A model generated the notes under the pieces. The model did no database searches. It was not told where the DNA came from and saw only the letters and a program-made list of their open reading frames with translations. The translations under genes and the position numbers were made by a program. Below, one piece after another: positions 25,118 through 41,430 of a DNA stretch of 64,000 bases (within the stretch, counting starts at the first letter, position 1; each line of letters begins with the position of its first letter). Origin of the DNA: Lachnospiraceae bacterium (GTDB lineage Bacteria > Bacillota > Clostridia > Lachnospirales > Lachnospiraceae); the NCBI GenBank assembly GCA_016286555.1, contig JAEETA010000001.1, positions 62,001-126,000 on the forward strand, read 5' to 3'.

Positions 25118-25129
25118 CCATTCTCTCCT

Positions 25130-25888: not shown

Positions 25889-26888
25889 TGACCCGTCTCC
25901 CTCCTTTCTTCAGCAGAAGGTACAGGAAGAAGGGAGCGCCCGAAAGGGACAGGATGATCCCCACGGGAAGCTCATACGGAGCAAAAAGCACCCGACCCGC
26001 CAGATCCGCAGTCAGCACAAACACCGATCCCAGAAGAGCGGATGCGGGGATCAGCACCCTCGCATCATGCCCCACGAAATATCTGCACACATGAGGAACG
26101 ATCAGTCCCACAAACCCGATGAGTCCGGAGTAGCTGACCACACATCCCGCCAGCAGACTGGCAAGAAGGACGTAGATGATCCGGAAAAATCCTGCATTCA
26201 GTCCCAGGGACATGGCCGTCCCGTCTCCCAGATTCATGATGTTCAGTGCTTTCCCCAGAAGGGATGCGATCAGGATCGCCAGCAGGATCCCCGGTGCGGG
26301 ATATGCGATACTGCTCATGGTGACTCCCGCCAGAGATCCGATGGAAAAGGACAGGGAGTTTATGACAATACTGTCATCCAACGTTTTGATCAGATTCATG
26401 GCAGCGGTCAGAAAGCTGGATACCGTGATGCCTGCCAGAATGATGGTCACTCTGGACCTCTCTGCGTAATACGCCAGACAGAGGATGAACAGTACCGTGA
26501 CCAGGGCTCCCAGAAATGCCATGAAGGATTTGGCAGCCGGATTTTTCGGGAAGATCAGCATGGAAAGCATCACGAAAAATCCCGCTCCGGAATTGACACC
26601 GATGGTATTGGAACTCGCCAGAGAATTGTTCAGCACTGCCTGCAGGATGGCTCCCGCTGCGCCCAGCCCCGCTCCCGTCAGGAGCCCTGCCAGGACCCTG
26701 GGAAGTCTGACGGAACGGATGATCACATCATTTGCGGTCTGCGCATTTGGATCAGACAATGCATGAAGGATCTCCCGCAGGGATACGCTGACGCTTCCCA
26801 GTGCCAGTCCCAGGAAGAGCAGGAGGATCAGCAACAGCGCCGTCAGCAGAAAAAATATGCGACTGTTTTCCGATGCTCCTTTTTTCAT
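25881..26888 (-). CDS. FecCD/BtuC-type ABC transporter permease
   Basis: Starting at ATG 26888, 21 bases past the binding-protein stop, the protein has 335 residues and about ten hydrophobic helices. Family motifs include RLPRVLAGLLTGAGLGAAG, NSLASSNTIGVNSGAGFFV and the C-terminal GLIGFVGLIVPHVCRYFVGHD, the coupling helix that contacts the ATPase. It forms a homodimer in related importers. The longer frame to 26954 would overlap the upstream gene and has no better start. The unit (binding protein, permease, ATPase) is complete. Confidence 0.9.
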   Translation of the reverse strand: MKKGASENSRIFFLLTALLLILLLFLGLALGSVSVSLREILHALSDPNAQTANDVIIRSVRLPRVLAGLLTGAGLGAAGAILQAVLNNSLASSNTIGVNSGAGFFVMLSMLIFPKNPAAKSFMAFLGALVTVLFILCLAYYAERSRVTIILAGITVSSFLTAAMNLIKTLDDSIVINSLSFSIGSLAGVTMSSIAYPAPGILLAILIASLLGKALNIMNLGDGTAMSLGLNAGFFRIIYVLLASLLAGCVVSYSGLIGFVGLIVPHVCRYFVGHDARVLIPASALLGSVFVLTADLAGRVLFAPYELPVGIILSLSGAPFFLYLLLKKGGRRVNA

Positions 26889-26908
26889 CTCCCGGTCCTG
26901 TCCTTTCT

Positions 26909-27919
26909 CTACGGATACAGGATATCCGCCAGTTTTTGATAGGCCTCTCCCCATCTGGCATTAGGCTTGGAGTTGTACAGTTCCTTCTCCAGCACGTAAT
27001 AGTTCCCGTTTTGCACGGCTCTCAAGGTCTGCCATGCAGGATTGCTGATCAGGAGTTCATCCACATTAGCCAGGGCTGCCTCGGTATCGGATCCCATGGT
27101 CGTAACGAAGATAAAATCGGGATCGTCCGCAATGATGGCTTCCAGGCTCAGATCCTCCAGAAGGAAATCGGAGTCTGCGATGTTCACCGTATCCAGATCT
27201 GCCAGGATCTCCCCCGCAACCGTTCCTTTGCTGCCCTTCACCTTGACGGAGGAGGAAGATGCTCTGAGGAACAGCACCTTCGGCTGCGTTCCGTCGATCC
27301 GCTCTTTCGTCTCTGCGATCTGCTGCTCCACGGCGCTGCCGTACTGCTCATACAGATCCTCTCTGCCCGTGATATCCGTGAAGATCCGAAGAGAATTCAG
27401 ATAATCGTCAAAGCCCTTCACATCAAAGTAAGCAACCGCGGCTCCTGCACTCTCCAGGGTCTCAGCCAGGGCAATCTGCTCATCAAAGGAAGAGGATGCG
27501 ATCACCAGGTCAGGCTCCAGAGACAGGATCACTTCCAGGTTCGGCTCGCTGTGTTCTCCCACATCTACTACCGAATCCTCCAGATTCAGATCAAAGGAGG
27601 TAAAGCTGTCGCTTCCGGTTCCAACGACGCTGCCTCCTGCCAGAAGCCACTCATCACAGAAACTTCCCAGGAGCGTCACCACACGGTCATGACTTTTCAC
27701 CGTTACTTCTCTTCCCAGATCATCCGTAAAGACATATTCACTCTCTGTGAGAACCTCCGCCGCTTCCGCCGGAGCCTCGCTCTCAAATGCAACGGTCTCC
27801 ACCAGGGTTTCACTCGCCGCTTCTTCCGCAGGGGACTCTACCACCGGATTTGCGGCAATCCCGCAGCCCACCAAAAGCAGCCCCAGGGAGATCAATAATC
27901 CCAACTGTTTTTTTCTCAT
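26909..27919 (-). CDS. Lipoprotein substrate-binding protein for the FecCD-type importer
   Basis: A 336-residue protein with a lipoprotein signal (MRKKQLGLLISLGLLLVGCG, lipobox Cys near residue 19), a Glu/Ala-rich linker to ~60, and a class III periplasmic-binding fold (TDDLGREVTV, VVDVGEHSEPNLEVILSLEPDLVIASS). Such proteins bind metal chelates, haem or cobalamin. The start overlaps the tusA-like stop by ATGA. The ligand is not predictable from motifs. Its unusual place between a sulfurtransferase and the permease suggests cargo needed for sulfur assimilation. Confidence 0.87.
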   Translation of the reverse strand: MRKKQLGLLISLGLLLVGCGIAANPVVESPAEEAASETLVETVAFESEAPAEAAEVLTESEYVFTDDLGREVTVKSHDRVVTLLGSFCDEWLLAGGSVVGTGSDSFTSFDLNLEDSVVDVGEHSEPNLEVILSLEPDLVIASSSFDEQIALAETLESAGAAVAYFDVKGFDDYLNSLRIFTDITGREDLYEQYGSAVEQQIAETKERIDGTQPKVLFLRASSSSVKVKGSKGTVAGEILADLDTVNIADSDFLLEDLSLEAIIADDPDFIFVTTMGSDTEAALANVDELLISNPAWQTLRAVQNGNYYVLEKELYNSKPNARWGEAYQKLADILYP

Positions 27920-28170
27920 GCTTCTTCCACCTTCCTGACATAGAGGGTGTAGGTTCCATCCTCATTGTCCGCCAGTTTCAGGATCTGATGCCCCTCCTCC
28001 TTGATGCTGCGGGGGACATTCTGCACAGGCTCTCCGTCGTTCATTCTGACGGCGATCACCTGTCCGTCATCCAGCTCCTCCAGGGCCACCTTGGCCTTCA
28101 CAAAGGTAACGGGGCAAACCACATCCGTAATATCGATCTCTTCGTCAAACAGGATCTCATTTTCTGCCAT
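27916..28170 (-). CDS. TusA-family sulfur-transfer protein
   Basis: From ATG 28170, with AGGAG 6 bp upstream, the protein has 84 residues. The family signature is ITDVVCPVTFVKAK, with the persulfide-carrying Cys19 followed by Pro, then a beta-alpha-beta fold. TusA-like proteins hand sulfane sulfur to acceptors. Here it is encoded 2 bp after the sulfite reductase, an arrangement seen in several anaerobes where it may be a sulfur relay partner. A GTG two codons upstream is an alternative start. Its 3' end overlaps the binding protein gene by 4 bp. Confidence 0.85.
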   Translation of the reverse strand: MAENEILFDEEIDITDVVCPVTFVKAKVALEELDDGQVIAVRMNDGEPVQNVPRSIKEEGHQILKLADNEDGTYTLYVRKVEEA

Positions 28171-28172
28171 GA

Positions 28173-29048
28173 TCACTCCTCTCCGCCCTCATAGGCTTTG
28201 CGGACCTTCTCCTTCAGACCGTCTGCACCGAGTCTTTCGATGGTCTTCCGGAACCGCTCGCCGGGCTTTGCATTTTCTTCAAAATATTCGATGGCTGCAT
28301 CGGTAACCCGGAACAGGGTTTCCTTGTCCTCAATGATGGGAACCAGTTCCTCTCCCTGATAAATGAAATTACCGAAGGTACCTCCGAAGGAAACGATGTA
28401 CCCCGGAGTGCCGATCCATGCATTTGCGGGACAGCTCTTCACGCATCTGCCGCAGTTGTTGCACTTCGAACTGTCCAGGATCACCTTGCCATCCACCAGG
28501 GAAAGGGCTCCGGTCCTGCAGGCCTTGATGCAGACACCGCAGGAAAAACAAAGGTCGTCCTTGTACTCGAGACTCAGTCCTCCCTTGATGCCCACGTCAT
28601 TTTCCTCGGCCTTCAGGCAGTTGTTCTGGCAGCCTGTCACGCCGAATTTGAACTTGTGAGGAAGCTCTCTTCCGAAGTAACGCTCATCCAGTTCCTTCGC
28701 CAGGGTATAGGTATCGATACATCCGCTGGGACAGATCTCGGATCCCTGACAGGCTGTTACGGTTCTGACTCTGGGGCCGCAGACACCGGTCTGTACGCCA
28801 CCCTTTGCCAGGGCCTCTTTCACCTCAGCCAGCTGCTCTACATTGATAAAAGGGATCTCCACGCCCTGTCTCGATGTCATGTGAACGTATCCGCGTCCGT
28901 ATTTTTCCGCCACCTCGGAGATGACTTTGATATTCTCAGCGGTGAGATTTCCTCCGATCACCTTCAGTCGTAAGGAACCGAAGCCCTTCTGCTTCTGCTT
29001 CATAAAACCGCCCTTTTTTAATTCCGCATAATTGATCTCGTCAGCCAT
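28173..29048 (-). CDS. Siroheme/4Fe-4S sulfite (or nitrite) reductase with built-in ferredoxin domain
   Basis: A 291-residue protein. The siroheme-4Fe-4S ligands fit the CX5C...CX3C rule: C100 and C106 (TACQGSEIC), C140 and C144 (TGCQNNC). An inserted ferredoxin domain carries two 4Fe-4S motifs: C167, C170, C173, C177 and C196, C199, C202, C206. The architecture is like AsrC and other small anaerobic sulfite reductases, which reduce sulfite to sulfide using ferredoxin-type electrons. Nitrite reduction cannot be excluded by sequence, but the TusA, carrier and MetY genes behind it argue for sulfite. It is the first gene of the operon. No AsrA or AsrB partner is adjacent. Confidence 0.85.
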   Translation of the reverse strand: MADEINYAELKKGGFMKQKQKGFGSLRLKVIGGNLTAENIKVISEVAEKYGRGYVHMTSRQGVEIPFINVEQLAEVKEALAKGGVQTGVCGPRVRTVTACQGSEICPSGCIDTYTLAKELDERYFGRELPHKFKFGVTGCQNNCLKAEENDVGIKGGLSLEYKDDLCFSCGVCIKACRTGALSLVDGKVILDSSKCNNCGRCVKSCPANAWIGTPGYIVSFGGTFGNFIYQGEELVPIIEDKETLFRVTDAAIEYFEENAKPGERFRKTIERLGADGLKEKVRKAYEGGEE

Positions 29049-29099
29049 ATCTCAAACTCCTTTCCGAATCATTGCGATCCCCCTTGCGGGAAGCGCTTC

Positions 29100-29127
29100 A
29101 TAAGTATCTCTTATCGCCCGTACTTAT
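29100..29127. promoter_or_regulatory. Inverted repeat in the sulfur-operon leader, possible regulator site
   Basis: ATAAGTA (29100-29106) and TACTTAT (29121-29127) form a perfect 7-bp inverted repeat with a 14-bp gap, and ATAAG/CTTAT (29100-29104/29110-29114) nests in it. It sits between the putative promoter and the reductase start. Confidence 0.45.
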
Positions 29128-29160
29128 TGAGTTAATGATACAGATATGTGCGCATCTACG

Positions 29161-29188
29161 CTAATATGTATCCTTAATGACGGGTAAA
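29161..29188 (-). promoter_or_regulatory. Putative promoter of the sulfite reductase-carrier operon
   Basis: Minus strand TTTACC (29188-29183), 16-bp spacer, TATTAG (29166-29161). It lies about 115 bp upstream of the reductase start, in the 222-bp spacer after the amidohydrolase terminator. Confidence 0.4.
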
Positions 29189-29215
29189 AAGTAAAAGTTA
29201 TAACAAAACCCGAAG

Positions 29216-29246
29216 GCAAAAAAACAGAGCGATGATGCGCTCTGTT
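29216..29246 (-). terminator. Rho-independent terminator of the radical SAM-amidohydrolase operon
   Basis: AACAGAGCG (29223-29231) pairs with CGCTCTGTT (29238-29246). On the minus strand a T-run follows at 29222-29216. It lies 25 bp past the amidohydrolase stop and separates the two sulfur-related operons. Confidence 0.85.
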
Positions 29247-29270
29247 TCTTCTGTCTTCTTATGATGCCGA

Positions 29271-30530
29271 TCACAGAGTATTTTTGTAGATCTCCCCACC
29301 CTTCATGATAACGCGAAGGTTCTCTGTGTTGCTCAGAACGGAAAGACTCCCGATGGGATCTCCGTCCACGATGAGCAGATCTGCGAAGGATCCCTGTTCC
29401 AGCAGGCCGATCTTGCCTTGCGGATAGGGATTCTGGTAGGTGGTCAGCTTGATGAGGTCGTTTGCGGCGCCCGTTGCGGACACCAGGCCACGGAAGCTGC
29501 CGAAGCGTTTTTCGTACACCGCCAGATCCCTGCTCTGGGCATTGGGATTGGAGTCTGCGATAAACTCCACATAATCCGTTCCGAAGATGATGGGCAGATC
29601 GTATTTCAGGATCATCTCCGTCTGGACATCCTCATGATCGATGATCTCCTGGGCTGCGGGCTTCCGCTTTCTGGGAGGCAGGCCCCTGGCTGCATTGAAT
29701 TCTTCATCCGCTCTGGGCTGCGGGCATACACAGAGGAAAATACCCTCGTCTCTTACGATTTTCGCCAGCTCTTCATCCAGCATCTGGCCGTGTTCAAAAC
29801 TCTTTACACCGGCTCTGGCCGCGCGGAGCATGGACTCTTTGGTGTAGAGATGAGCCATGACATAGGTGCCGTAATCGGCAGCCGCTTCCACGGCGGCTCT
29901 CATCTCGTGCTCGGTGAACTGGATGGTCTGGATGGGGTCATACTGAGACGACATCCCGCCCCCCGCCATGATCTTGATCTGGGACGCCCCGAGAAAAAGC
30001 TGTTCTCTCGTTGCCCGGAGCACTTCATCATAGCCGTCGGCGATAACAGTTTCACCGCAGGTTAATGCCGGGGAGGTAAAGCTCCCGTCACTCAGTCGGA
30101 CATGGGCTCTGCTCTCTCTTTTGTCGCCGTGTCCGCAGGTCTGGGAAATATAGGCATTGGAGGGAAAAACTCTGGGACCGGGGACCCTTCCGTCATCGAT
30201 CCCCTTCTTGATCCCGTAAACGATCCCGCCGGCATCCCTGACGGTGGTAAAGCCGTTTAGCAGCATGCGCTTTGCATGTGCCACGCCGTGGACCACCGCT
30301 TCATCCACACGCATGTCCTTCCCGGGCATTCCCAGGTGGACATGATGATCCACCAGTCCCGGGATCACGATACGGTTTCCGGCATCCGTTACCTGTCCGA
30401 AGCTTTCCTCCGGCAGGGTTTCCTGTGTGATCTCTTCCACCAGGTCCCCGTCTATGACAATGCTCGCGTGCTCTGTGAGGATCTCATGACGACCGTCAAA
30501 TACACGGGCATTTTTTACCAGTTTTTTCAT
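29271..30530 (-). CDS. Metal-dependent amidohydrolase (imidazolonepropionase/prolidase-like)
   Basis: A 419-residue TIM-barrel amidohydrolase. Metal ligands are visible as H63 and H65 (VDHHVHLG), K186 (SQIKIMAGGG, the likely carboxylated Lys), H227 (AHLYTK), H247 (FEHGQM) and D319 (FGTDYVE). N- and C-terminal strands form the flanking beta-sandwich (GSFADLLIVDGDP). The subfamily acts on amide or cyclic amide bonds of small molecules, including Xaa-Pro dipeptides and imidazolone rings. It is the last gene of the eight-gene operon and presumably hydrolyses the imported compound or an intermediate. No signal peptide is seen, so it is cytoplasmic. Confidence 0.85.
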   Translation of the reverse strand: MKKLVKNARVFDGRHEILTEHASIVIDGDLVEEITQETLPEESFGQVTDAGNRIVIPGLVDHHVHLGMPGKDMRVDEAVVHGVAHAKRMLLNGFTTVRDAGGIVYGIKKGIDDGRVPGPRVFPSNAYISQTCGHGDKRESRAHVRLSDGSFTSPALTCGETVIADGYDEVLRATREQLFLGASQIKIMAGGGMSSQYDPIQTIQFTEHEMRAAVEAAADYGTYVMAHLYTKESMLRAARAGVKSFEHGQMLDEELAKIVRDEGIFLCVCPQPRADEEFNAARGLPPRKRKPAAQEIIDHEDVQTEMILKYDLPIIFGTDYVEFIADSNPNAQSRDLAVYEKRFGSFRGLVSATGAANDLIKLTTYQNPYPQGKIGLLEQGSFADLLIVDGDPIGSLSVLSNTENLRVIMKGGEIYKNTL

Positions 30531-30558
30531 ATCGTGATCCTCCGGAAAAAATCATTTC

Positions 30559-31461
30559 TTAGTTGTATGCCTCGTAAGGAGTCAGGTCTTCACCGATGTA
30601 CTTCTCGGAGATGGCCTTCAGAGTTCCGTCAGCCACCAGCTCTGCAAGAACGGCGTCGAAGTCCTCCTGCAGCTGCTCCTGACCCTTTGCAAACAGGAAG
30701 TAGGAGTAGACGGGACCCTTGCCCCAATCCAGGATCGCATAGTTGAGATCCAGACCCAGCTGATCCTTATAAGCACCGAAATACATGGGCTTTGCGGTGG
30801 AGAAGAGCTCATACTTTCCGGACTGCACATTGGTCAGAATGGTAGGAACGTCCTCCTCTGTGTAATTGATGGTGATCTGGTTGTCGGGATGCTCGTCGTT
30901 GTACTTCTCAGCCTCGGTGGTATGTGCGGAGCCGGGCTCTGCGGTATAAACGTACTGGGTCAGCTCATCCAGGGTATACCGATCCTTGGTAAATTCGATG
31001 GTGCTGGACAGCAGGACCTCCTCACTGATGACCTTGGGAGTGGAGAAGAGATACTTGGCCTTTCTCTCTTCGTTCATGGAGAAGTTGTTGGCACCCATCT
31101 GGAAATTGCCGGCATCCATTCCGGTGAAGATGGAAGCAAATTCAATAATCTCAAACTCCACCTCGTACTGAGGGAGGCGGTTAAATACCTCCTTTACGAT
31201 CTCAATGTCGTAGCCGATCAGCTCATCGTTATCATCGGTATAGGTCCAGGGTCTGGTATGTCCGCCGGTACCGCAGTGGATCACGGTCACCTCAGGTGCC
31301 GCATCCGTGCTTGCAGCGGTGTCGGTTGCCTCGGTTTGAGCAGCCGGTGCAGGTGCTGCGGATGCAGTACTGCCGGAAGCGCTGCCTGCGGATCCGCATC
31401 CCGCAAGCAGCAGGGCTCCTGCGGAAATCACTCCAAGTACACTGATCAATCTCTTCTTCAT
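30559..31461 (-). CDS. Amino-acid-type ABC transporter substrate-binding lipoprotein
   Basis: A 300-residue lipoprotein: MKKRLISVLGVISAGALLLA followed by the lipobox Gly-Cys, then a Ser/Ala/Thr linker to ~55. The solute-binding type 3 domain includes RPWTYTDDNDELIGYDIEIV, QMGANNFSMNEERKAKYLF and a C-terminal LKAISEKYIGEDL. Related proteins bind polar amino acids, cystine, or small sulfur amino acid derivatives. The permease and ATPase are three to five genes upstream in the same operon. A ligand such as a sulfur-containing amino acid derivative fits the context but is inferred. Confidence 0.88.
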   Translation of the reverse strand: MKKRLISVLGVISAGALLLAGCGSAGSASGSTASAAPAPAAQTEATDTAASTDAAPEVTVIHCGTGGHTRPWTYTDDNDELIGYDIEIVKEVFNRLPQYEVEFEIIEFASIFTGMDAGNFQMGANNFSMNEERKAKYLFSTPKVISEEVLLSSTIEFTKDRYTLDELTQYVYTAEPGSAHTTEAEKYNDEHPDNQITINYTEEDVPTILTNVQSGKYELFSTAKPMYFGAYKDQLGLDLNYAILDWGKGPVYSYFLFAKGQEQLQEDFDAVLAELVADGTLKAISEKYIGEDLTPYEAYN

Positions 31462-31476
31462 TTTTTCATTCTCCTT

Positions 31477-32544
31477 TTATGCTTTATTTAATTGGCGAAA
31501 ACGTTCCTTTGCTTCCTCCAGAAAGCTTTCGTCAATCCATTCACTTAAATCAAAATCCTGTTCGATGATGCCCTTTTCCAGCAAAAACCTTTTTTGCTCG
31601 GCAAGGGCTGCTACCAGCTCCTCATCGAAGGAAGGAGCCAGCTTGGTGTACCAGGTCTTTTCTCTGGTCTCTTTCTGTTCTTCCACGGTGACACCGAACT
31701 GCGCCTTTACCGTGAGAACTTCATAGTTTTCCGGATCTGCGGCTGCCGTCTTTGCCATCAAAAGCAACCGGTACAGATATTCGACAACGATGTCCCTGTT
31801 GGCTTTTGCAAAACCCGCATCCACCGTGATCACGGTAGGGTAGATGTTGTTCACCTGCGGCAGATCCGTCTGCGCGATATCGATCAGGACACGCCCGATG
31901 CCTTTGTGAACGATCTGGCTCACCAGCGCTCTGTGGGAGAAAAATGCATCGATCCTGCCTTCCCGCAGCGCCTTGATCTCCTCCACATGATGGGACACAA
32001 AATCCTTGTCCGAAACGCCTTCCCGATTGCCGATCAGATTTCCCTTGGCGTCTACATGGGCACTGTTGGCCCGGCCGTCAACAGGGGTATCTACAAATAC
32101 CACTTCGGAAGGATCGATCCCCGCTCCCTTCAGGATCGTGTCATACCCTCGCAGCGTCATGGCCCGCATGGGATCGATGACTTTGCCGCCGTGGTCCGGC
32201 ACCGACAGGCGCTTTCCCCGCAGGTCCTGCACCGTTCTTATCTCCGAGTCCGGTGCCACGATGATGGCGTGGGACTGGATGATGCCGTTTAATCCGATCA
32301 CCAGGGTCGGCGTTCCTTTGGAGTGGCTCCAGATGGGAGGAACATTTCCGCCGTCCCGGAAGGCCAGGGGCGCTTCCTGAGTTAGGTGCTTTATATGTTC
32401 CTGCTCCGGTAGGGACTGCAGCAGGACCACCTCCGCTCCTTTTTCCGCAAAGGCTTCCTCCACGGTTCCGGTTTCAAACAGGAGCTCCGTGGAGCCTCCC
32501 AGAGGACACCTGGTCATGATGACCTGTCTCGTGCTCTCACTCAT
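31477..32544 (-). CDS. DszB-like putative sulfinate desulfinase (NMT1/SsuA-like fold, cytoplasmic)
   Basis: A 355-residue protein of the nitrate/sulfonate-binding fold but with no signal peptide or lipobox. It starts MSESTRQVIMTRCPLGGST. In the desulfinase DszB the catalytic residues are Cys27, His60 and Arg70. Here Cys13 lies in TRCPLGG, and H53 and R63 in HLTQEAPLAFRDGGNVPPIW, with the same 10-residue His-to-Arg spacing and the same downstream Gly-Gly-x-x-Pro-Pro. The end (QKRFLLEKGIIEQDFDLSEW) also resembles DszB. DszB cleaves an aryl sulfinate to sulfite. This copy may do the same to another sulfinate, or be a soluble binding protein. The ATGA start overlaps the enolase-family gene. Confidence 0.62.
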   Translation of the reverse strand: MSESTRQVIMTRCPLGGSTELLFETGTVEEAFAEKGAEVVLLQSLPEQEHIKHLTQEAPLAFRDGGNVPPIWSHSKGTPTLVIGLNGIIQSHAIIVAPDSEIRTVQDLRGKRLSVPDHGGKVIDPMRAMTLRGYDTILKGAGIDPSEVVFVDTPVDGRANSAHVDAKGNLIGNREGVSDKDFVSHHVEEIKALREGRIDAFFSHRALVSQIVHKGIGRVLIDIAQTDLPQVNNIYPTVITVDAGFAKANRDIVVEYLYRLLLMAKTAAADPENYEVLTVKAQFGVTVEEQKETREKTWYTKLAPSFDEELVAALAEQKRFLLEKGIIEQDFDLSEWIDESFLEEAKERFRQLNKA

Positions 32545-33722
32545 TCCTTCACCTCCCCCACCGTAAACACATCAAATCTGTCCAGCACATCCGGGGAGAT
32601 GTCCTGCCCCAGTCCCGGCAGTTCCGGAACCTCCAGCAGGCCGTCTGTCGCGTCGTATTTGTACAGACCGTATTTGAAGTTGTAATCATTCAGGGTGTGT
32701 ACGTGATGCTCATGAAGCAGGAAATTGGGGATCACCGCGCCGAGGTGGATGGAAGCCGCCTGGTTGATAGGGCCGCCGCAGGTGTGGCTGGAAATGGATG
32801 CGCCGAAGCTCTCCGCCAGGTCCGCCACCTTTTTGAACTCGGTAATGCCACCCGTGTTACACACATCCGGCATGAGCACTTTTGTGGATCTGTTCTCCAG
32901 GAAGGGCAGGATACCCGTTCTGCCGGGGATCCGTTCTCCCGTTGCCAGAGGGAAGGGGCTCTTCTCCGCCACCAGTTTCATCTGGTGCGGATCCGGCTCT
33001 ACCGGTTCCTCAAAGAAGAGGATGTTGGTGCCTCGGGCCGCCTCGATGGTGCGGTAGGCGTCCTCCAGTCCCGTCATGGCGTTGTTCTCGATGATGATCT
33101 CACCGTCGCTTCCCAGTCCCTGTTGCACCGCAAGCATGCGCTCCCGGATCAGCTTGTAGAAATCCTGATCAAAAGGATGATAGCGATCCACCCGGGTCAC
33201 ATTCCCCGCTGCGTCGTAGCGGAAGAAGTTTGCCTTCACGTATTGGTATCCCTTATCCCGGGCTCTCCTTGCCACCGTTTCGAATTCCTCGGGAGTGATG
33301 GGCGGCTGATCCGTGTCAGGATAGCCGAACTCAATGTGGCTCAGGTACACGGGAACCTTCTCCCGCACCTTTCCTCCCAACAGTTTGTACACCGGGACTC
33401 CCAGAGCCTTGCCCTTAATGTCCCAGAGAGCGATATCGATGGCACTGATGGCGGAAATGGTAAGGGGGCCGCCCAGGGCTTCCCAGCCGCCGCGAAATCT
33501 GTGCCAGATGGCCTCGGTCTCAAAAGGATCTCTGCCGATCAGGAGACCGGCCAGCTCTTTGATGTACTCCGCCACTGCGGGGATGCCCACGCCGTAGACG
33601 ATGGGCTCGCCGACACCGTAGATCCCTTCGTCGGTGTAGAGCCTGACGAAAACCATATGATGTTTGCCCACTTTGAAGGGCCCGTTGTTGTCGATATAGA
33701 TTTTTGCACCCGTGATCTTCAT
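32541..33722 (-). CDS. Enolase-superfamily enzyme, mandelate racemase subgroup (dehydratase/racemase-like)
   Basis: A 393-residue protein with an alpha+beta capping domain (1-125) and a (beta/alpha)7-beta barrel. Magnesium ligands are E212 (IIENN, replacing the usual Asp), E238 (FFEEP) and E263 (ATGERI). A D286/H313 dyad (LMPDVCNTGG, SSHTCGGP) is the base typical of the mandelate racemase and acid-sugar dehydratase subgroup. The second-strand motif is KAN (K163-N165) rather than KxK. The substrate is a carboxylate, but the sulfur-operon context argues against an ordinary sugar acid. The start overlaps the ATPase stop by ATGA and its end overlaps the DszB-like gene by 4 bp. Confidence 0.82.
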   Translation of the reverse strand: MKITGAKIYIDNNGPFKVGKHHMVFVRLYTDEGIYGVGEPIVYGVGIPAVAEYIKELAGLLIGRDPFETEAIWHRFRGGWEALGGPLTISAISAIDIALWDIKGKALGVPVYKLLGGKVREKVPVYLSHIEFGYPDTDQPPITPEEFETVARRARDKGYQYVKANFFRYDAAGNVTRVDRYHPFDQDFYKLIRERMLAVQQGLGSDGEIIIENNAMTGLEDAYRTIEAARGTNILFFEEPVEPDPHQMKLVAEKSPFPLATGERIPGRTGILPFLENRSTKVLMPDVCNTGGITEFKKVADLAESFGASISSHTCGGPINQAASIHLGAVIPNFLLHEHHVHTLNDYNFKYGLYKYDATDGLLEVPELPGLGQDISPDVLDRFDVFTVGEVKE

Positions 33723-34483
33723 ATGTTGTACTCCGATCCCTCAAGCATTTTTACCTTTACCAGGAACTGCCTGAGTCTTTCGTTGGACGGCTTGTCAAAG
33801 ATCTCCTTTGCGGTGCCGTCCGCTACGATCTTGCCGTTCTCCAGGAAAATGACCCTGTCTGCCACTTTCCGGACAAAATCCATCTCGTGAGTCACCAGCA
33901 GGATGGTATTTCCTTCCTGAGCGATGGTTTTGATGGTAAGGAGCACCTCTCCCACCAGCTCCGGATCCAGTGCCGATGTGGGCTCGTCCATCAGGAGGAG
34001 TTCAGGATCCATGGACAGTGCTCTGGCGATGGCCACACGCTGCTGCTGGCCACCGGAAAGATGTGCGGGATAATGATTGATCCTGTCCAGCATTCCCACC
34101 TTGTCGATCTCCCGAAGGGCGATCTCCCGGGCCTCTTCTTTTCCCAGTTTTTTTACCGTCACGAGTCCTTCCATGATGTTTTCCAGCGCGTTTTTGTTCT
34201 TCAGGAGATTGAACTGCTGGAACACCATCTCCGTATGCTGCCGCAGGGAAAGAATCTCTTTGTGGTTTTTGGTGGTAAGGTCGTATTTCTGATCATGGAA
34301 AGAGATGCTGCCGGATTCCGGTTTTTCCAGACGGTTCAGACATCTGATCAGGGTGGATTTTCCCGTTCCGGAAGGACCGATGATGGCCACCACCTGACCC
34401 TTTTCAATGTCCAGATCGATGTGATCCAGCACCTGGTTGTCACCGAATTTTTTGGACAGATCTCTGATCTCAACAAACGCCAT
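33719..34483 (-). CDS. Amino-acid-type ABC transporter ATP-binding protein (GlnQ-like)
   Basis: From ATG 34483 (AAGGTG upstream) the protein has 254 residues: Walker A GPSGTGKST, Q-loop MVFQQFNLL, signature LSGGQQQRVAIARALS, Walker B LLLMDEPTSALDPE and H-loop VTHEM. It groups with polar amino acid importers, matching the type 3 binding protein and HisM-like permease of the same operon. The start lies 14 bp inside the permease gene end, so translation is coupled. A GTG three codons upstream is an alternative start. Confidence 0.92.
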   Translation of the reverse strand: MAFVEIRDLSKKFGDNQVLDHIDLDIEKGQVVAIIGPSGTGKSTLIRCLNRLEKPESGSISFHDQKYDLTTKNHKEILSLRQHTEMVFQQFNLLKNKNALENIMEGLVTVKKLGKEEAREIALREIDKVGMLDRINHYPAHLSGGQQQRVAIARALSMDPELLLMDEPTSALDPELVGEVLLTIKTIAQEGNTILLVTHEMDFVRKVADRVIFLENGKIVADGTAKEIFDKPSNERLRQFLVKVKMLEGSEYNI

Positions 34484-35276
34484 TTGCAACACCTTCTTTC
34501 ACGGGGCGGGCAGCGGATACAGTCTGCAGATTCTTTCTGAGCGCCTCCAGTTCCTCTGCTTTCAGCTCGGGAGCTTCCTTGGGTACTCGCACCTTTTTCT
34601 CCAGCCGCTTGATGATAAATTCCAGTACCAGGGTGATGACCCAATAGATGATCCCCAGGGAGACGTAGACTTCAAAGTAGCGGTAATTCCTTCCTGCCAG
34701 AATCTTGCCCACCGCCGTCATCTCCACGACGCCGCAGGAAAATGCCAGGGAGGTTCCCTTGATGAGACCGATAATGGAATTGCCCAGAGGCAGGAGTGCT
34801 ACCTCGCCGGCCTGGGGGAAGATGATCCGACGGAACACCTGGAAATTGCTCATACCCAGCGCTTTTCCCGCTTCGATCTGGCCCTTGTCCACGGAAAGGA
34901 TGGCGGAACGGATGGTCTCGGAATCAAATGCCGAGTGGTTCAGGCCCAGGGCGATGATGGCAAACACGATCCCCGGAATGCCGTTCACGTTGTACTCCGT
35001 TCCCCGGTAATAATTCACGTACCGGAGGAAAATGGGAATGCCGAAGTAGGTGGCATAAAGCTGCACAATGATGGGAGTTCCTCTCATGAGGGACACAAAG
35101 GCCACCGCAATTTTAGAAAGCACCGGGACATTGGCAACCCGGATCAGGGCGATGACCACACCCAGCAGGAAGCTGATGATCAGTGCAAAGAACACCAGTT
35201 CCAGAGTTACGGGCAGTTCCTCCAACAGTTTGGGTATTTGGGTAAATACCAGTTTCAGATCAAATAAGTTTGGCAT
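34470..35276 (-). CDS. Amino-acid-type ABC transporter permease (HisM/GlnP-like)
   Basis: From ATG 35276 the protein has 268 residues: a periplasmic N-terminal stretch, then about five membrane helices. The EAA coupling loop reads GQIEAGKALGMSNFQVFRRIIFPQA, and RGTPIIVQLYATYFGIP is the standard entry motif of this family. A charged C-terminal tail (about 30 residues) is longer than usual. It overlaps the ATPase by 14 bp. The in-frame extension to 35375 would overlap the upstream FMN-protein gene and shows no similarity. Only one permease is encoded, so it should act as a homodimer. Confidence 0.9.
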   Translation of the reverse strand: MPNLFDLKLVFTQIPKLLEELPVTLELVFFALIISFLLGVVIALIRVANVPVLSKIAVAFVSLMRGTPIIVQLYATYFGIPIFLRYVNYYRGTEYNVNGIPGIVFAIIALGLNHSAFDSETIRSAILSVDKGQIEAGKALGMSNFQVFRRIIFPQAGEVALLPLGNSIIGLIKGTSLAFSCGVVEMTAVGKILAGRNYRYFEVYVSLGIIYWVITLVLEFIIKRLEKKVRVPKEAPELKAEELEALRKNLQTVSAARPVKEGVANGVC

Positions 35277-35289
35277 TTTTTCTACCTCG

Positions 35290-35754
35290 CTATCCGATAA
35301 AGTCTTTGTCGAGATGGCCCAGTTCCGGGAACTGTTCTCTTTCCAGCCTTCTCCGTACGGTAAGTGTGTCCTCATAGATATCCGTGGGATCCACGATCCA
35401 GATGCCGGCCAGCTCGCTTTCCGGATCTGCAGCCGTCAGTTCCCTGTATTTTTCCTCAAAAGCGGGACCAACGATGATATCTCTGTACGGGATCCCTTTG
35501 ATCACGAAGCTCTCGCCGATCTCGGAGAGGAGGGTCAACGCGACCTTTTTGCCAAACCAGAGAGCATAGGTCAGATCTCTGGTAGCTTGTGAGGTTTCCA
35601 GCTGTTCGTACAGGACCAGCCTTCCTTCCTCATCCACACCCGCTTCCGGCAGGACGGTGGAGCTTACCTCCCCTTTCGCGTCCACGGTGGAAAGGGTAAG
35701 GATCGTATTCTTACTGCCGATCAGTGCGATCAGCTTTTCATCCAATTTTGCCAA
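35290..35754 (-). CDS. Pyridoxamine 5'-phosphate oxidase-family FMN-binding split-barrel protein
   Basis: A 154-residue single-domain protein with the split-barrel pattern: LIGSKNTILTLSTVDAKGEV (strands 1-2), GRLVLYEQLETSQATRDL (FMN phosphate region) and KKVALTLLSEIGESFVIKG. It lacks the C-terminal substrate region of true PdxH. Family members reduce flavins, haem or F420-linked substrates. It overlaps the radical SAM gene's end by 17 bp, so the two are made together, and an electron-supplying role for that enzyme is plausible. No substrate is evident. Confidence 0.78.
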   Translation of the reverse strand: MAKLDEKLIALIGSKNTILTLSTVDAKGEVSSTVLPEAGVDEEGRLVLYEQLETSQATRDLTYALWFGKKVALTLLSEIGESFVIKGIPYRDIIVGPAFEEKYRELTAADPESELAGIWIVDPTDIYEDTLTVRRRLEREQFPELGHLDKDFIG

Positions 35755-37033
35755 GTTCCGACCTCCTGCGTATTCTGTCCAGATCTCCCGAGGGCTGGTT
35801 TCCGCTTCTCGCGTAATCTCTGGAGTAGTTGTTCAGTCCGTATGCATCATGCAGAGCGCTGATGCCCTGTGACAGCCTGACGTAGTAGTCAAGGGAGGGG
35901 GATACCTGATTTTTGAAGATGGTGTTCTGGTACACTCTCCAGACAAAATCCACTACCTGTATCCCCTTTTGGGAAAGTAAGTCTGCTTCCTTCAGCACCG
36001 ACTCCAGCGCCTCGTCCTCGGTTTTGAATCCGTGGGGCGTTGCCAGCTCCAATCCGCCGATGATGTCGGTGTAGACATTTCCCTTTCCGAAGATGGACAC
36101 GGCCTCCTCCAGTCTGCCTTTCCATCCGTCATAACCGATGTGACGGGCCTTGCCGGGACAGATCCATTGGAAGAGCTCTTTGTTCAACACTTCGATGTTG
36201 GCGGTGTAGATCCCGATGCCTCCCTCATCTCTCAGCCGCTCCAGCTGCTGTCCGTCCAGTGCGGTGGTGACCAGGGAAGCTTTTAAGGGAAATCTGCTGA
36301 AAAGTTTTTTGATCCGCACCAGACTGTCCAGGCACAGCTCCAGCTCGTCATCCAGAAGCTTTGCACCTCCCAGAAGGGAACCTTGCGTTGCGTTGAATTG
36401 AAGGAAACGGCCTTTCTGTTTCAGGGCTTCCTGCAGGGTCTCCGCCAGATCGTCCGGGTCGACTCTGAGCTGATGTCCGCATTTTTTCTCCTGAACGCCG
36501 TAGACGCCGATGCCGCAATACTTACATCCGTCTCCCGGAGTGTCCCAGAACTCACAGTACTTGTTCAGCTCCGAATCGATGCGCTTTCCTCTGACATTGG
36601 CTACCTTCCACATGGGAGTGCCTTTGCTTGTCACCTTGTCGTAATAGTCCGGCTTCCTCCAGAACTCTGCTTCCTCGTAGATCCTTCCCTGATCAGTTAT
36701 GACGATTCTGTCATTTTCATCCACATCGATGAGGTAGGGATCTCGAAGGACTACCTCGTCATCGGAGACACATCCGTTACAGACGAGGGTTCCGTCTCTG
36801 AGAACCAGTCCTTCCACTGTGGTGGAATCCGATTCTCCGGTGAGATGAATGCCGTTGGTGTGATGAATGTTTACATCGATTTTCGCTCTGGCTGCTGCGG
36901 AGAGCACATATCCTCTTCTGTGCAGGTCCGTTTTCAGGATTGTAAAGATCGGAACATCCGGATGATGCTCTATCACTTTTTCGATGCTGTCCTCCCGCTC
37001 TCTCCAGTCGGGTATCTTGATCTGAATCGCCAT
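35738..37033 (-). CDS. Radical SAM protein with non-standard CX9CX2C cluster motif
   Basis: A 431-residue protein. Instead of CX3CX2C, the likely 4Fe-4S ligands are C160, C170 and C173 (NKYCEFWDTPGDGCKYCGIG), spaced CX9CX2C as in Elp3, though nothing else resembles Elp3. An aromatic/Gly segment follows and later GGLELATPHGFKTEDEA fits SAM-barrel strands. Residues 1-150 form an extra N-terminal domain with CNGC (85-88), and a lone C185 lies close to the cluster. GGGAGAGGG precedes the start. It is the first gene of the eight-gene operon. The reaction is unknown; C-S bond cleavage or rearrangement of the imported compound is inference from neighbours. Confidence 0.78.
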   Translation of the reverse strand: MAIQIKIPDWREREDSIEKVIEHHPDVPIFTILKTDLHRRGYVLSAAARAKIDVNIHHTNGIHLTGESDSTTVEGLVLRDGTLVCNGCVSDDEVVLRDPYLIDVDENDRIVITDQGRIYEEAEFWRKPDYYDKVTSKGTPMWKVANVRGKRIDSELNKYCEFWDTPGDGCKYCGIGVYGVQEKKCGHQLRVDPDDLAETLQEALKQKGRFLQFNATQGSLLGGAKLLDDELELCLDSLVRIKKLFSRFPLKASLVTTALDGQQLERLRDEGGIGIYTANIEVLNKELFQWICPGKARHIGYDGWKGRLEEAVSIFGKGNVYTDIIGGLELATPHGFKTEDEALESVLKEADLLSQKGIQVVDFVWRVYQNTIFKNQVSPSLDYYVRLSQGISALHDAYGLNNYSRDYARSGNQPSGDLDRIRRRSELGKIG

Positions 37034-37098
37034 TCCGTAACCCTCTCCCTCATAATCTTCTTTGCTTTATTGTTTCCCGGTGGTTTGTAATTGAGAGA

Positions 37099-37127
37099 AT
37101 ATTATCATTTTGTTTCGGGCCGGAAAA
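37099..37127 (-). promoter_or_regulatory. Weak putative promoter of the radical SAM operon
   Basis: Minus strand TTTTCC (37127-37122), 17-bp spacer, TAATAT (37104-37099), 66 bp before the start. The -35 box is a poor match, which would suit an activated promoter. Confidence 0.32.
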
Positions 37128-37138
37128 TTACGGGGTTG

Positions 37139-37154
37139 TTATCATCCGAGATAA
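37139..37154. promoter_or_regulatory. Operator-like inverted repeat upstream of the radical SAM operon
   Basis: TTATC (37139-37143) and GATAA (37150-37154) flank a 6-bp centre, 12 bp upstream of the putative -35, the usual place for a LysR-type activator. Confidence 0.35.
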
Positions 37155-37199
37155 GGAAAACTTATTACAGCAGGACGATTAACCGAACTTCGCCTATTT

Positions 37200-37264
37200 C
37201 GCCTATTATAGAAGGCTTCGCTTCGCCTATTACAGAAAGCTTCGCTTCGCTCGCTTTCTGTAAT
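37200..37264. repeat. 24-bp tandem repeat running into a hairpin
   Basis: Two copies of a 24-bp unit (37200-37223 and 37224-37247, starting CGCCTATTA and ending GCTTCGCTT) differ at two positions. The second copy contributes ATTACAGAAAGC (37229-37240), which pairs perfectly with GCTTTCTGTAAT (37253-37264). Confidence 0.75.
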
Positions 37265-37290
37265 CGTCATGCTGTCGCACGACGATTACA

Positions 37291-37350
37291 CGAATAAAAA
37301 GGGACCCGGGAGCTGGTGCAAGCACCGCTTCCGGGTCCCTTTTTTATTCG
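37291..37350. terminator. Bidirectional Rho-independent terminator downstream of glgA
   Basis: CGAATAAAAAGGGACCCGG (37291-37309) pairs with the arm at 37331-37350, with an inner GGTGC/GCACC pair. T-runs occur on both strands. On the minus strand it ends the glgA transcript. Confidence 0.88.
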
Positions 37351-37365
37351 TAAATAGACTTGCTC

Positions 37366-38811
37366 CTAGCCTATGAGCCAGTCGTACATCTCCTGATATT
37401 TATTCGCGGACACGGCCCAGGAATAGTCCACGGCCATGGCGCGGTCCACGATCTTGTTCCACTCTCTGCGGCGGTCGTAGTAGACCTGCTCGGCGTAACG
37501 GATGGTGCGGAGCAGCTCGTGGGCGTTGTAGTTCACGAAGGAGAATCCGGTGCCGGTCCCCTCGTACTCGTTGTAGGGAATAACGGTGTCCTTCAGACCG
37601 CCGGTCTCGCGGACGATGGGCACGGTGCCGTAATGCAGGGCGATGAGCTGGCTCAAGCCGCAGGGCTCAAAGAGAGAGGGCATAAGGTATGCATCACAGG
37701 CTGCGTAGATCTTGTGGGAAAGACCGTCGGAGTAGTAAATGTTCGCGGACACCTTCCCGGAATACTTCCAGTCGAAGTGGCGGAACATGTTCTCGTACCG
37801 CTCCTCGCCGGTGCCCAGCACCACCAGCTGAATGTCATCCTGACAGAGCTCGTCCATGATGTAGGCCACCAGATCCAGACCCTTCTGATCCGTAAGGCGG
37901 GAGACGATACCGATCATCATCTTCTTCTCATCCACGGTGAGCCCCAGTTCCTCCTGGAGGGCACGCTTGTTTTTCACCTTCTCCTTGCGGAAGTTCACGG
38001 CGTTGTATTTTTTCACGATCTGATGATCCGTGGAAGGATCGAAATCACTGTAGTCGATGCCGTTCACGATACCCCGGAGGGAATTGGCCCGGGCACGTAG
38101 CAGCCCGTCCAGACCCTCGCCGTAGAAGGGCATTTTGATCTCCTCGGCATAAGTGTCGGACACGGTAGTCACCGCATCGGCAAAGACGATACCGCCCTTT
38201 AAGAGGTTGGCGTCCTTGTAGGACTCCAGCTTATCGGGAGTGAAATAGTAATCGGGAAGTCCGGTGAGATCCTTCACGGTCTTCACATCCCATTTTCCCT
38301 GGAACTTCAGGTTGTGGATGGTGATGACGGTCTTGATCCCGTGGTAGAATTCGCCGCCGGCAAAACGCTCCTTCAGATAAACGGGAATGAGGCCGGTCTG
38401 CCAGTCGTGGCAGTGGATCAGGTCAGGGCGAAAATCGATGACGGGCAGTGCGGAAAGCACGGCCTTACAGAAATATGCATAGCGCTCAATCTCGTAGCGG
38501 GGATCGTCGTTGTAGACCTTGGGCCCGCTGAAATAGAACTCATTGTCGATGAAATAGTAATGCACGCCGTCGATCTGGGCGTGGAAAATACCCACATAGA
38601 CATTCTGCCAGTTGTAGTCCATATAGAAATGGTCCACATAGGTGAGCTTGTCCTTCATCTCCTGCTTCATACAGGCGTATTTCGGAAGAAAAACACGAAC
38701 GTCGAAGTATTTCCGGTCAATGTACTTCGGAAGGCTGCCCACAACGTCTGCCAGGCCGCCCGTCTTTACAAAAGGAACTCCCTCCGATGCCACAAACAAA
38801 ACCTTTTTCAT
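37366..38811 (-). CDS. glgA: Glycogen synthase (ADP-glucose starch synthase, GT5)
   Basis: From ATG 38811 (GGAGG 10 bp upstream) the protein has 481 residues. The N-terminal ADP-glucose loop KVLFVASEGVPFVKTGGLAD is diagnostic of GT5 GlgA. Further motifs are HCHDWQTGLIPVYL, TIHNLKFQGKW, SRLTDQKGLDLV and the C-terminal PSLFEPCGLSQL. The enzyme extends alpha-1,4-glucan chains in the cytoplasm. No glgB, glgC, glgD or glgP is adjacent, so the gene stands apart from a glycogen operon. An earlier ATG at 38820 sits too close to the ribosome-binding site. Confidence 0.94.
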   Translation of the reverse strand: MKKVLFVASEGVPFVKTGGLADVVGSLPKYIDRKYFDVRVFLPKYACMKQEMKDKLTYVDHFYMDYNWQNVYVGIFHAQIDGVHYYFIDNEFYFSGPKVYNDDPRYEIERYAYFCKAVLSALPVIDFRPDLIHCHDWQTGLIPVYLKERFAGGEFYHGIKTVITIHNLKFQGKWDVKTVKDLTGLPDYYFTPDKLESYKDANLLKGGIVFADAVTTVSDTYAEEIKMPFYGEGLDGLLRARANSLRGIVNGIDYSDFDPSTDHQIVKKYNAVNFRKEKVKNKRALQEELGLTVDEKKMMIGIVSRLTDQKGLDLVAYIMDELCQDDIQLVVLGTGEERYENMFRHFDWKYSGKVSANIYYSDGLSHKIYAACDAYLMPSLFEPCGLSQLIALHYGTVPIVRETGGLKDTVIPYNEYEGTGTGFSFVNYNAHELLRTIRYAEQVYYDRRREWNKIVDRAMAVDYSWAVSANKYQEMYDWLIG

Positions 38812-38880
38812 GAACTGCATACCTCCGGATTTTTATCGTAACGCTCTGCTGCTTATGAAAAAACCTTCTCTGATGCTTTA

Positions 38881-39807
38881 TTACCTTGCGTCCAGCGCGG
38901 ACTGAATGTCTTCCTTCATAGCCAGGACCGCTGCGCGGGATGCGTCCGCATAGCCCTCTTCCCCGTAGTAGGCATAGCTTTCCTGCTTGTATGCCGCGAT
39001 GATTCCGCGGGAGGAATTGATGATGGCACCCAGGCCGTCCTCGTTGAAGAAATAGGCCAGGTCTGCGCCCTTACCGCCCTGTGCGCCGTAGCCGGGCACC
39101 AGGATAAAGGCCTTGGGCATAATCTTCCGCAGGAGCTTTCCCTGCTCGGGATAGGTGGCTCCCACCACGGCACCCACATTGCTGTAATCGCCGTCCATGC
39201 AGTCAGCGCCCCATTCTACGACCTTCTCGCCCACCAGCTCATACAGGGGCTTGCCGTCTACGATCCGATCCTGGAACTCTCCGCTGGAAGGGTTGGAAGT
39301 CTTCACCAGAACGAAGATACCCTTATCCTCCTGCTTGCAGATATCCACGAAGGGCTTCACACCGTCGCTGCCCAGGTAAGGATTCACGGTGACAAAATCT
39401 TCGTCAAATCCCGCAAAGGAATTGCTGCCCACCTGCACCTTGCCGATGTGCCCCACAGCGTATGCCTGGGAAGTGGAACCGATGTCACCGCGCTTGATAT
39501 CGCCGATGACGATAAGACCCTTGCTCTTGCAATACTCCACGGTACGGTGGAAAGCCATCAGACCGGAAATACCGAACTGCTCATACATGGCGATCTGGGG
39601 CTTCACGGCGGGGATCAGATCACAGGTTGCATCCACGATGCCCTTGTTGTACTGCCAGATAGCCTCTGCTGCGCCCTCCAGGGTCTCTCCGAATTCTTTG
39701 AAGGCCTTCTTCTGAATGTGGGAAGGCACGTAGGAAAGCATGGGATCCAGGCCCACTACGATAGGTGCGTTCTTTTTCTGAATTTCCTGAATTAACTTAC
39801 TGATCAT
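38881..39807 (-). CDS. pyrF: Orotidine 5'-phosphate decarboxylase, long (type 2) form
   Basis: A 308-residue protein with the catalytic Asp-Lys-Asp region IVIGDIKRGDIGSTSQAYA and the phosphate-binding FILVPGYGAQGGKGADL. The N-terminal VVGLDPMLSYVP and overall length fit the PyrF_2 group found in many Clostridia rather than the short ~235-residue enzyme. It makes UMP from OMP, the last step of de novo pyrimidine synthesis; its product is the substrate of PyrH at the window's left end. Its start shares a base with the stop of the upstream TPR lipoprotein gene. Confidence 0.93.
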   Translation of the reverse strand: MISKLIQEIQKKNAPIVVGLDPMLSYVPSHIQKKAFKEFGETLEGAAEAIWQYNKGIVDATCDLIPAVKPQIAMYEQFGISGLMAFHRTVEYCKSKGLIVIGDIKRGDIGSTSQAYAVGHIGKVQVGSNSFAGFDEDFVTVNPYLGSDGVKPFVDICKQEDKGIFVLVKTSNPSSGEFQDRIVDGKPLYELVGEKVVEWGADCMDGDYSNVGAVVGATYPEQGKLLRKIMPKAFILVPGYGAQGGKGADLAYFFNEDGLGAIINSSRGIIAAYKQESYAYYGEEGYADASRAAVLAMKEDIQSALDAR

Positions 39808-40847: not shown

Positions 40848-40927
40848 GCGGATCTCCTTACAACGTTTTTTCTGTCGCTTCGCTCCGGATCGCACATCGC
40901 TTCGGGTGCAAAGGGAGCTGTGCGGGA

Positions 40928-41392: not shown

Positions 41393-41430
41393 AACCGACC
41401 TCCATAGAATGTGTTTTCACGGATTTCGGG

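Follow-up and report, generated by a model that had tools for sequence, protein, structure and literature searches.

A candidate anaerobic organosulfur-to-sulfite operon with radical SAM and DszB-family genes in a Lachnospiraceae bacterium

Eight genes in a 64 kb window of a Lachnospiraceae genome (operon A; 'the window' is the whole stretch of 64,000 nucleotides, positions 62,001 to 126,000 of contig JAEETA010000001.1, assembly GCA_016286555.1) resemble parts of several described systems that use organic sulfur. DszB is the 2′-hydroxybiphenyl-2-sulfinate desulfinase of the 4S pathway, and its active-site residues are given as Cys27, His60, Arg70 and Gly73 in the available part of PMC12168087. 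SsuEADCB and Tau combine a transporter with C—S cleavage and yield sulfite. In the excerpts of the sources cited, IsrBHDK, the isethionate reductase of Rhodobacter capsulatus, carries out oxygen-independent sulfonate assimilation with a radical S-adenosylmethionine (SAM) protein and SsuCAB, releases sulfite and needs nitrogenase-like HDK subunits (PMC11423573), and the glycyl-radical sulfite-lyases (IslAB) use oxygen-independent radical C—S cleavage, also with sulfite as product (PMC6453916, PMC6386719). Operon class 4e of Iyer et al. (2006), as excerpted from PMC1779556, comprises ThiS, JAB, E1-like, SirA, sulfite reductase and O-acetylhomoserine sulfhydrylase genes.

One operon A protein shows full-length profile homology to DszB and has all four of its active-site residues, but its setting differs: there is no monooxygenase alongside, the host is an anaerobe and the importer is of an amino-acid type. 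The likeness to SsuEADCB and Tau lies in the combination of transporter, C—S cleavage and sulfite, and in relatives of the operon A radical SAM protein that stand beside Ssu-type transporters, with SsuD in Campylobacterota; operon A and the adjoining operon B, however, have neither an oxygenase nor an Ssu-type transporter, and a pair formed by a radical SAM protein and a probable flavin mononucleotide (FMN) protein stands in that place. No SsuD or TauD oxygenase was found in operon A or among the operon B proteins scanned, and with its polar-amino-acid-type importer the locus does not belong to the Ssu systems. As proposed from the genes alone, it would share with IsrBHDK an oxygen-independent, radical SAM-linked, sulfite-releasing character; membership is ruled out by the absence of nitrogenase-like H, D and K subunits among the eight proteins. 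In contrast to IslAB, operon A has no glycyl radical enzyme, and its radical SAM protein would act directly. The MSMEG_0568/Nit1C family was also ruled out, the TIGR04043 score (56.5 bits) falling short of the cut-off, 303.7. Operon B holds all six gene kinds of class 4e, but has no sulfate-activation gene and is adjoined by operon A as a likely source of sulfite. Among the matches listed from the open-access literature, the parts available describe neither a pathway with this gene set nor an anaerobic role for DszB homologues.

We consider it likely that operon A is a LysR-controlled, anaerobic operon that converts an organosulfur compound (a sulfinate or sulfonate) to sulfite and feeds operon B. 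A role in sulfur metabolism is well supported by the adjacency of operon B, the DszB residues, a palindrome shared by both operons and the sulfur contexts of the relatives. The genes and their residues, the co-location, the palindrome and the absence of a match to the 3′-phosphoadenosine 5′-phosphosulfate (PAPS) reductase family are direct observations; from these we infer the substrate, the reaction order, each reaction and the binding of the LysR-type regulator. If the reading is right, rumen and gut bacteria, in which sulfide can be formed from organic sulfur, would have further routes of organic sulfur use: the radical SAM/FMN pair, and anaerobic desulfinases of the DszB family coupled to sulfite reductase.

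Operon A and its DszB-family protein

All eight open reading frames (ORFs) of operon A lie on the minus strand between 37033 and 29271. From the radical SAM gene to the amidohydrolase gene the intergenic gaps are −17, 13, −14, −4, −4, 15 and 28 bp, so the genes are likely to form one transcription unit. The starts of the permease (35276) and ATPase (34483) genes were read from the sequence within longer mechanical ORFs. An intrinsic terminator closes the operon at 29222–29247 (minus strand): the stem comes from a consensus scan, in which it is listed for the plus strand, there is a T run on the minus strand, and the region 29205–29270 folds with −22.3 kcal/mol (z = −3.62), a value equalled by none of 200 shuffles. 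An earlier note on this DNA had described eight minus-strand ORFs with overlaps or short gaps and one closing terminator; coordinates, strand, gaps and fold all agree with it. The note had overlooked a further sulfur operon, which starts 222 bp downstream. Overall, the terminator scan is unenriched (9 sites; shuffle mean 8.4), the promoter scan gave 8 sites (shuffle mean 5.3, s.d. 2.5) and no Rfam family was over threshold within 20000–40000. The genome carrying the window comprises 2.93 Mb in 83 contigs and is 89.8% complete.

The candidate sulfinate desulfinase (31477–32544; Pfam NMT1) has no visible signal peptide. Its top solved-structure match is DszB (PDB code 2de2, E = 3.4 × 10⁻¹¹), and a profile of ten family sequences, the window protein included, covers residues 21–363 of the 365 of DszB with E = 2.5 × 10⁻⁴¹, compared with merely 4.3 × 10⁻⁸ for SsuA. 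Cys13, His53, Arg63 and Gly66 (CHRG) are invariant across the aligned family; the last three align with His60, Arg70 and Gly73 of DszB in the HMMER alignment, and Cys13 was placed against Cys27 manually. In a tree from which Rhodococcus DszB itself was left out, the 13 CHRG proteins form a single clade (support 100/100), and the four residues occur in none of the 25 other binding-type proteins. The closest partner of the window protein in this tree is its sister from locus L083 (98/92; 50% identity), and identity to the proteobacterial relatives is about 30%. Residues, full-length profile and clade support true DszB-family membership; the earlier note had called the protein DszB-like and signal-less. 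Two proteins on a Sinorhizobium plasmid (L024:7702–8742 and 9998–11032) are annotated as ABC (ATP-binding cassette) substrate-binding proteins, yet carry the DszB catalytic residues; they are probably misannotated enzymes, and one protein so labelled at L024 has CHRG and groups inside the DszB clade.

The surroundings of the DszB relatives are related to sulfur metabolism. The Sphingobium relative is accompanied by annotated ssu genes and monooxygenases, and the Sinorhizobium relative by a flavin adenine dinucleotide (FAD) monooxygenase and an acyl-CoA dehydrogenase-like gene; flavin monooxygenases, the partners that make the sulfinate for DszB, are annotated beside the relatives at L024 and L025; none is found among the eight operon A proteins. 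At L085 and L086 the DszB relative lies in one run with an Ssu-type substrate-binding protein (SBP), permease and ATPase, MetY, a sulfite reductase-like protein, TusA, ThiS, ThiF and JAMM. At L083 an enolase gene (55% identical to that of the window) immediately precedes the DszB-like gene, in the company of an importer of oligopeptide/nickel/glutathione type (scores below cut-offs). Outside the window, the enolase–DszB pair recurs in a single genome, a rumen Lachnospiraceae; this genome, that of locus L028, also has two more DszB-like genes beside an Ssu-type transporter. DszB-like proteins are even less common than the radical SAM protein, occurring in 3/397 genomes of the family, in 2/398 of a phylum sample at E = 10⁻⁴⁰ and in six of 30 chosen genomes (the window's own counted each time); the 30 were drawn from 29 of the 51 radical SAM loci described below plus three further genomes, and three of the six were already known.

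Operon B and the shared palindrome

Operon B runs on the minus strand from 29048 to 21462. It begins with a siroheme sulfite reductase-like gene (28173–29048; NIR_SIR, AsrC-like, TIGR02912 166 bits against a cut-off of 324), followed by a TusA sulfur carrier (27916–28176; PF01206), an iron/haem-type Peripla_BP_2 binding protein (26909–27919; PF01497), a FecCD permease (25881–26954; PF01032) and an ABC ATPase (25130–25888; PF00005). Next comes a LysR-type regulator (24215–25117; PF00126, PF03466), which clusters with the LysR genes that follow the radical SAM operons of L043 and L051. A MetY-type O-acetylhomoserine sulfhydrylase (22943–24190; PF01053, TIGR01326 397 bits against 495), a ThiS-like sulfur carrier with C-terminal Gly residues (22716–22928; it clusters with the ThiS-like protein of L023), a ThiF/E1-like protein (21898–22716; PF00899) and a JAMM/JAB metalloprotease-like protein (21462–21938; in one cluster with Prok-JAB from L030) complete the operon. 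No member of the PAPS-reductase family (PF01507) was found in the window genome at its 89.8% completeness. In a genome of the same genus (G116, 99% complete) synteny extends as far as glgA, after which neither operon is present; searches in it for the radical SAM protein, DszB and sulfite reductase were empty at the limits used.

Co-occurrence with sulfite reductase, which the earlier note had suggested looking for, was indeed observed: within the window's family, all six genomes with a close radical SAM relative (at least 42% identity, a cut set at a natural gap) have a close sulfite reductase (E = 10⁻¹⁰⁰), compared with 36 of 391 others (Fisher p = 10⁻⁶). A sulfite reductase-like relative, 65–76% identical to that of the window, lies near the radical SAM gene at L032, L039, L040 and L054.

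The palindrome ATAAG-N5-CTTAT stands 118 bp upstream of operon A (37151–37165) and about 50 bp upstream of operon B (29100–29114). It has the T-N11-A form that is the rule for LysR-type sites, and the operon B regulator is a candidate for the protein that may bind it. Exact copies number two in the window and zero in each of 100 shuffles. Of the four in the whole genome, three are intergenic and precede sulfur operons and the fourth is within an ORF; the two outside the window are an independent test. The third follows directly on MetY and CysK and precedes a MetQ-type/MetN/MetI importer by about 290 bp. The gene between this palindrome and MetN/MetI (L095:4360–6072) encodes a 570-residue lipoprotein with an SBP_bac_3-type and a MetQ-type half.

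In the 300 bp upstream of genes in the relatives, seven of 13 stretches hold the palindrome with no more than one mismatch (two exact), where mononucleotide shuffles gave a mean of 0.34 and none of 2000 reached seven. Of 15 listed stretches, 13 were used (L034 and L042 were left out), and that of the first L086 gene was picked after its site had been seen. The positives are the metK–radical SAM operons of L043 and L051, the DszB operons of L084, L085 and L086 (two) and the sulfite reductase of L023; an exact palindrome at L023 lies 364 bp upstream of the radical SAM gene, beyond the 300 bp limit.

The radical SAM protein and its relatives

The radical SAM protein (35738–37033) carries the CX9CX2C motif named in the earlier note; its Cys160, Cys170 and Cys173 are invariant in 50/50 aligned sequences, in which the canonical CX3CX2C is not present, and Cys292 is a further invariant residue. 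At 156.9 bits it exceeds the cut-off of 125 for NCBIfam NF045502 (variant_rSAM), and Pfam Radical_SAM picks up 23 of the 50 sequences in the alignment. The probable FMN split-barrel partner (35290–35754) is more ambiguous: PNPOx_N is matched by nine of 36 aligned sequences (best E = 7 × 10⁻⁵), an unrelated IDH model by five of 36 (up to 2.6 × 10⁻⁵), and the family profile reaches HupZ at E = 0.004, a weak and mixed set of matches. The FMN-partner alignment (A4) comprises 36 of its 41 listed candidates, and the radical SAM alignment (A5) 50 of 59. Neither window protein matches a Pfam model at E = 0.001. Of the family calls made in the earlier note, those matched by BPD_transp_1, ABC_tran, MR_MLE_N/MR_MLE_C, NMT1, SBP_bac_3 and Amidohydro_1 stand, the radical SAM call is upheld through NF045502 and the FMN split barrel is weakly backed.

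A single-protein search of the genome contigs gave no radical SAM relatives, and an alignment-based search of the same contigs was needed; it returned 51 loci, mostly from metagenome-assembled genomes (MAGs), spanning Lachnospiraceae, other Clostridia, Synergistaceae, Spirochaetia, Desulfovibrio, an Accumulibacter bin and Campylobacteraceae/Helicobacteraceae bins. Relatives in records not labelled as MAGs (Pseudobutyrivibrio sp. OR37, Roseburia hominis An869, Blautia sp. MSJ-19 and Cellulosilyticum ruminicola JCM 14822) should make the proposal testable, the first two being cultured relatives. The closest relative by identity (48%) is in the genome of L028. The protein was found in 9/397 family genomes, the window's own included, and in a class sample in 1/291, the window's own only.

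ORF calling missed the full radical SAM ORF at five loci (L040, L044, L048, L076 and L077), leaving 46. Within five genes of the radical SAM gene, an NMT1-type SBP is present at 42 of these 46, an Ssu-type permease at 40, an FMN partner at 38 and metK at 19, compared with six, one and zero of the first three among 182 control genes at least eight genes away. The FMN gene is directly adjacent in 36/46. The ORF picker can swap a gene for an antisense ORF (the window's enolase was lost in this way), and a tblastn recount was therefore made over all 51 loci: it found FMN relatives at 45, Ssu-type permeases at 45, SsuD at ten, sulfite reductase at four and TusA at five. Relatives of the window-type permease and binding protein were found at L068 and L069 only. 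SsuD is present in 9/16 full Campylobacterota loci, and the sole member tested (L058) is over the cut-off (545.7 against 518.2); TauE of L030 is over its Pfam cut-off. The conserved units are the radical SAM–FMN pair and, in one other genome, the enolase–DszB pair.

A second subfamily (L023:663–1934, L027:777–1970 and L052:6908–8095), 19–21% identical to the window protein, lies beside binding-protein or Ssu-type ABC genes and, like the window copy, has no Cys at column 410. The divergent relatives at L016, L017 and L018 have an energy-coupling factor (ECF)-type transporter, not an Ssu-type ABC transporter (PF09819 was tested in L018 alone).

Proposed pathway and alternatives

The permease (34470–35276) is of the polar-amino-acid (cystine) type and the ATPase (33719–34483) of the TcyN/GlnQ type, although both are below the equivalog cut-offs of the cystine importer TcyBC/TcyN (PRK15100 cystine permease, 165 bits against 300; TcyN, 310 against 406). 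The best solved relatives of the binding lipoprotein (30559–31461) are 4c0r and 4eq9, followed by 4gvo, 2o1m (YtmK) and 2yln. We take the first two to be glutathione-binding GshT, a naming that is unconfirmed (4EQ9 does not occur in PMC9769658), and the ligands of the other three are presumably glutathione or cystine. This type fits the import of a nitrogen- and sulfur-containing molecule, as put forward in the earlier note, without proving it; the excerpt of PMC10355420 links GshT with TcyBC. The imported compound would be an organosulfur compound resembling an amino acid or peptide.

The amidohydrolase (29271–30530) resembles prolidase-like solved enzymes (Xaa-Pro dipeptidase/prolidase type) and would open an amide; its His63, His65, Lys186, His227, His247 and Asp319 presumably hold metal. 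It was rejected as a metalloBSH amidohydrolase: those are PF07969 in the available part of PMC13081902, and the best Pfam match here is PF01979, PF07969 being weaker. The enolase-superfamily enzyme (32541–33722) has three acidic positions aligned with the acids of solved relatives (Glu212, Glu238 or Glu239, and Glu263) and an Asp286/His313 pair, and may take the α-proton beside a carboxylate, leading to elimination or rearrangement. Its top equivalogs are galactonate and mannonate dehydratases, with a best score of 217.6 bits below the cut-off of 311. In acid-sugar dehydratases a His two residues past the first metal ligand protonates the leaving hydroxyl. The window enzyme and its L083 partner have Asn214 at this position, so that the galactonate-type His is missing; 2o56 and 2ox4, both only putative enzymes, have the His. 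A leaving group that needs no proton, such as sulfite or sulfinate, would fit with this loss.

The DszB-family protein would then use Cys13 to free sulfite from a sulfinate, while His53 and Arg63 keep the SO2 group in place. By radical chemistry, with FMN supplying electrons, the radical SAM/FMN pair may break, or prepare, the C—S bond, standing where aerobes would employ a flavin monooxygenase. Operon B would receive the sulfite for reduction, loading onto TusA/ThiS (ThiF/JAMM) and synthesis of homocysteine by MetY.

A number of observations weigh against this reading. The complete eight-gene set, which the earlier note proposed seeking in other genomes, recurs at none of the loci examined, and none of the 51 radical SAM loci has a window-type enolase or amidohydrolase by tblastn; the set is therefore a mosaic of conserved modules. 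Both of these families commonly contain sugar-acid or peptide enzymes. The window radical SAM protein has Ser and Gln at positions 410 and 413, where Cys and His are each found in 46/50 sequences, and its function may have changed because this pair is missing; three divergent relatives (31–36% identity as aligned here) lie beside an ECF transporter with no sulfur cluster matched, the FMN gene is non-adjacent at 10/46 loci, and the SsuA-, SsuC/TauC- and MetY-type neighbours at L030 are top matches yet below equivalog cut-offs. A PAPS-reductase family member is present in six of 12 genomes searched, several with the radical SAM protein. The co-occurrence with sulfite reductase falls to 6/9 (p = 7 × 10⁻⁵) for all nine radical SAM genomes, or 7/9 (p = 10⁻³) with a looser reductase set, and kinship is uncorrected in these values. 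The palindrome was spotted by eye in both window promoters first, so that those two sites are not independent; when one mismatch is allowed, the window gains no site, whereas two sites are reached in 19 of 100 shuffles. The genome-wide count of four compares with two for a reversed control pattern, so the argument rests on the position of the sites. Six of the 13 upstream stretches are negative (L030, L054 (two), L028, L083 and the radical SAM gene of L023), and exact palindromes inside the radical SAM gene of L028 and before a non-sulfur gene at L049 are counter-examples.

Among other explanations, salvage of S-modified cysteine or glutathione (thioether, sulfoxide or sulfinate adducts) is possible, though we doubt it: the amidohydrolase and enolase would act on the amino-acid part and the radical SAM protein would dealkylate the sulfur. 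Such salvage would be an anaerobic counterpart of the ytmI S-alkylcysteine pathway of Bacillus subtilis. The sub-cut-off cystine-type permease and ATPase, the solved relatives of the lipoprotein and the oligopeptide/nickel/glutathione-type importer accompanying the L083 pair all agree with such salvage, but operon A has no acetyltransferase or recognised thiol-releasing enzyme, and the radical SAM relatives prefer sulfonate-type transporters. It is unlikely that the radical SAM/FMN pair cleaves no C—S bond and instead serves to make or repair a cofactor used by the desulfurising enzymes, or to alter another part of the imported molecule; the distant TIGR04043 relationship and the ECF-linked relatives point that way (the reaction of the MSMEG_0568 family is, to our knowledge, not known), whereas the recurrent pairing with an Ssu-type transporter and metK (19/46 loci) fits stoichiometric use of SAM on an imported substrate. 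That operon A serves to break down a common sugar acid, amino acid or peptide as a carbon and nitrogen source, with the NMT1 protein a stray cytosolic binder and operon B a chance neighbour, accords with the dehydratase-like enolase and prolidase-like amidohydrolase, whose families are usually sulfur-free, but is very improbable because of the DszB catalytic residues (and clade), the palindrome common to operon A, operon B and the MetQNI locus, and operon B itself, and is further opposed by the recurrence of the enolase–DszB pair and the joint absence of both operons from the same place in the same-genus genome.

Extending the organosulfur-to-sulfite reading beyond the window, we tentatively suggest, at somewhat less than even confidence, that the radical SAM/FMN pair acts generally as an anaerobic desulfonating enzyme, working directly and at the expense of SAM, and replaces SsuDE in Bacillota, Synergistota, Spirochaetota, Campylobacterota and some Desulfovibrio. 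In that case operon A would be a derived version to which an enolase–DszB desulfination module for amino-acid-like organosulfur compounds has been added.

Three features of the radical SAM neighbourhoods remain to be described. Genes for a BadF-type activator and an HGD-D/double-cubane-like reductase adjoin the radical SAM–FMN genes at L028:14699–18844 and L045:6294–8327 (family tests were made in L028 only, where double_cubane was below its cut-off), and their products might feed low-potential electrons to the pair. In Campylobacterota a gene for a threonine synthase-like pyridoxal phosphate enzyme recurs near the radical SAM gene (L057, L059, L068, L069 and L070); the L068 protein, the only one tested, is over the threonine synthase cut-off and matches cysteate synthase (TIGR03844) weakly. 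Finally, L043:14505–21242, L051:14471–20875 and the window at 38881–44710 have three flanking gene clusters in common, with pyrF also seen by eye at L043, and the radical SAM gene may hold an old syntenic place at which the transporter and enzymes have been exchanged.

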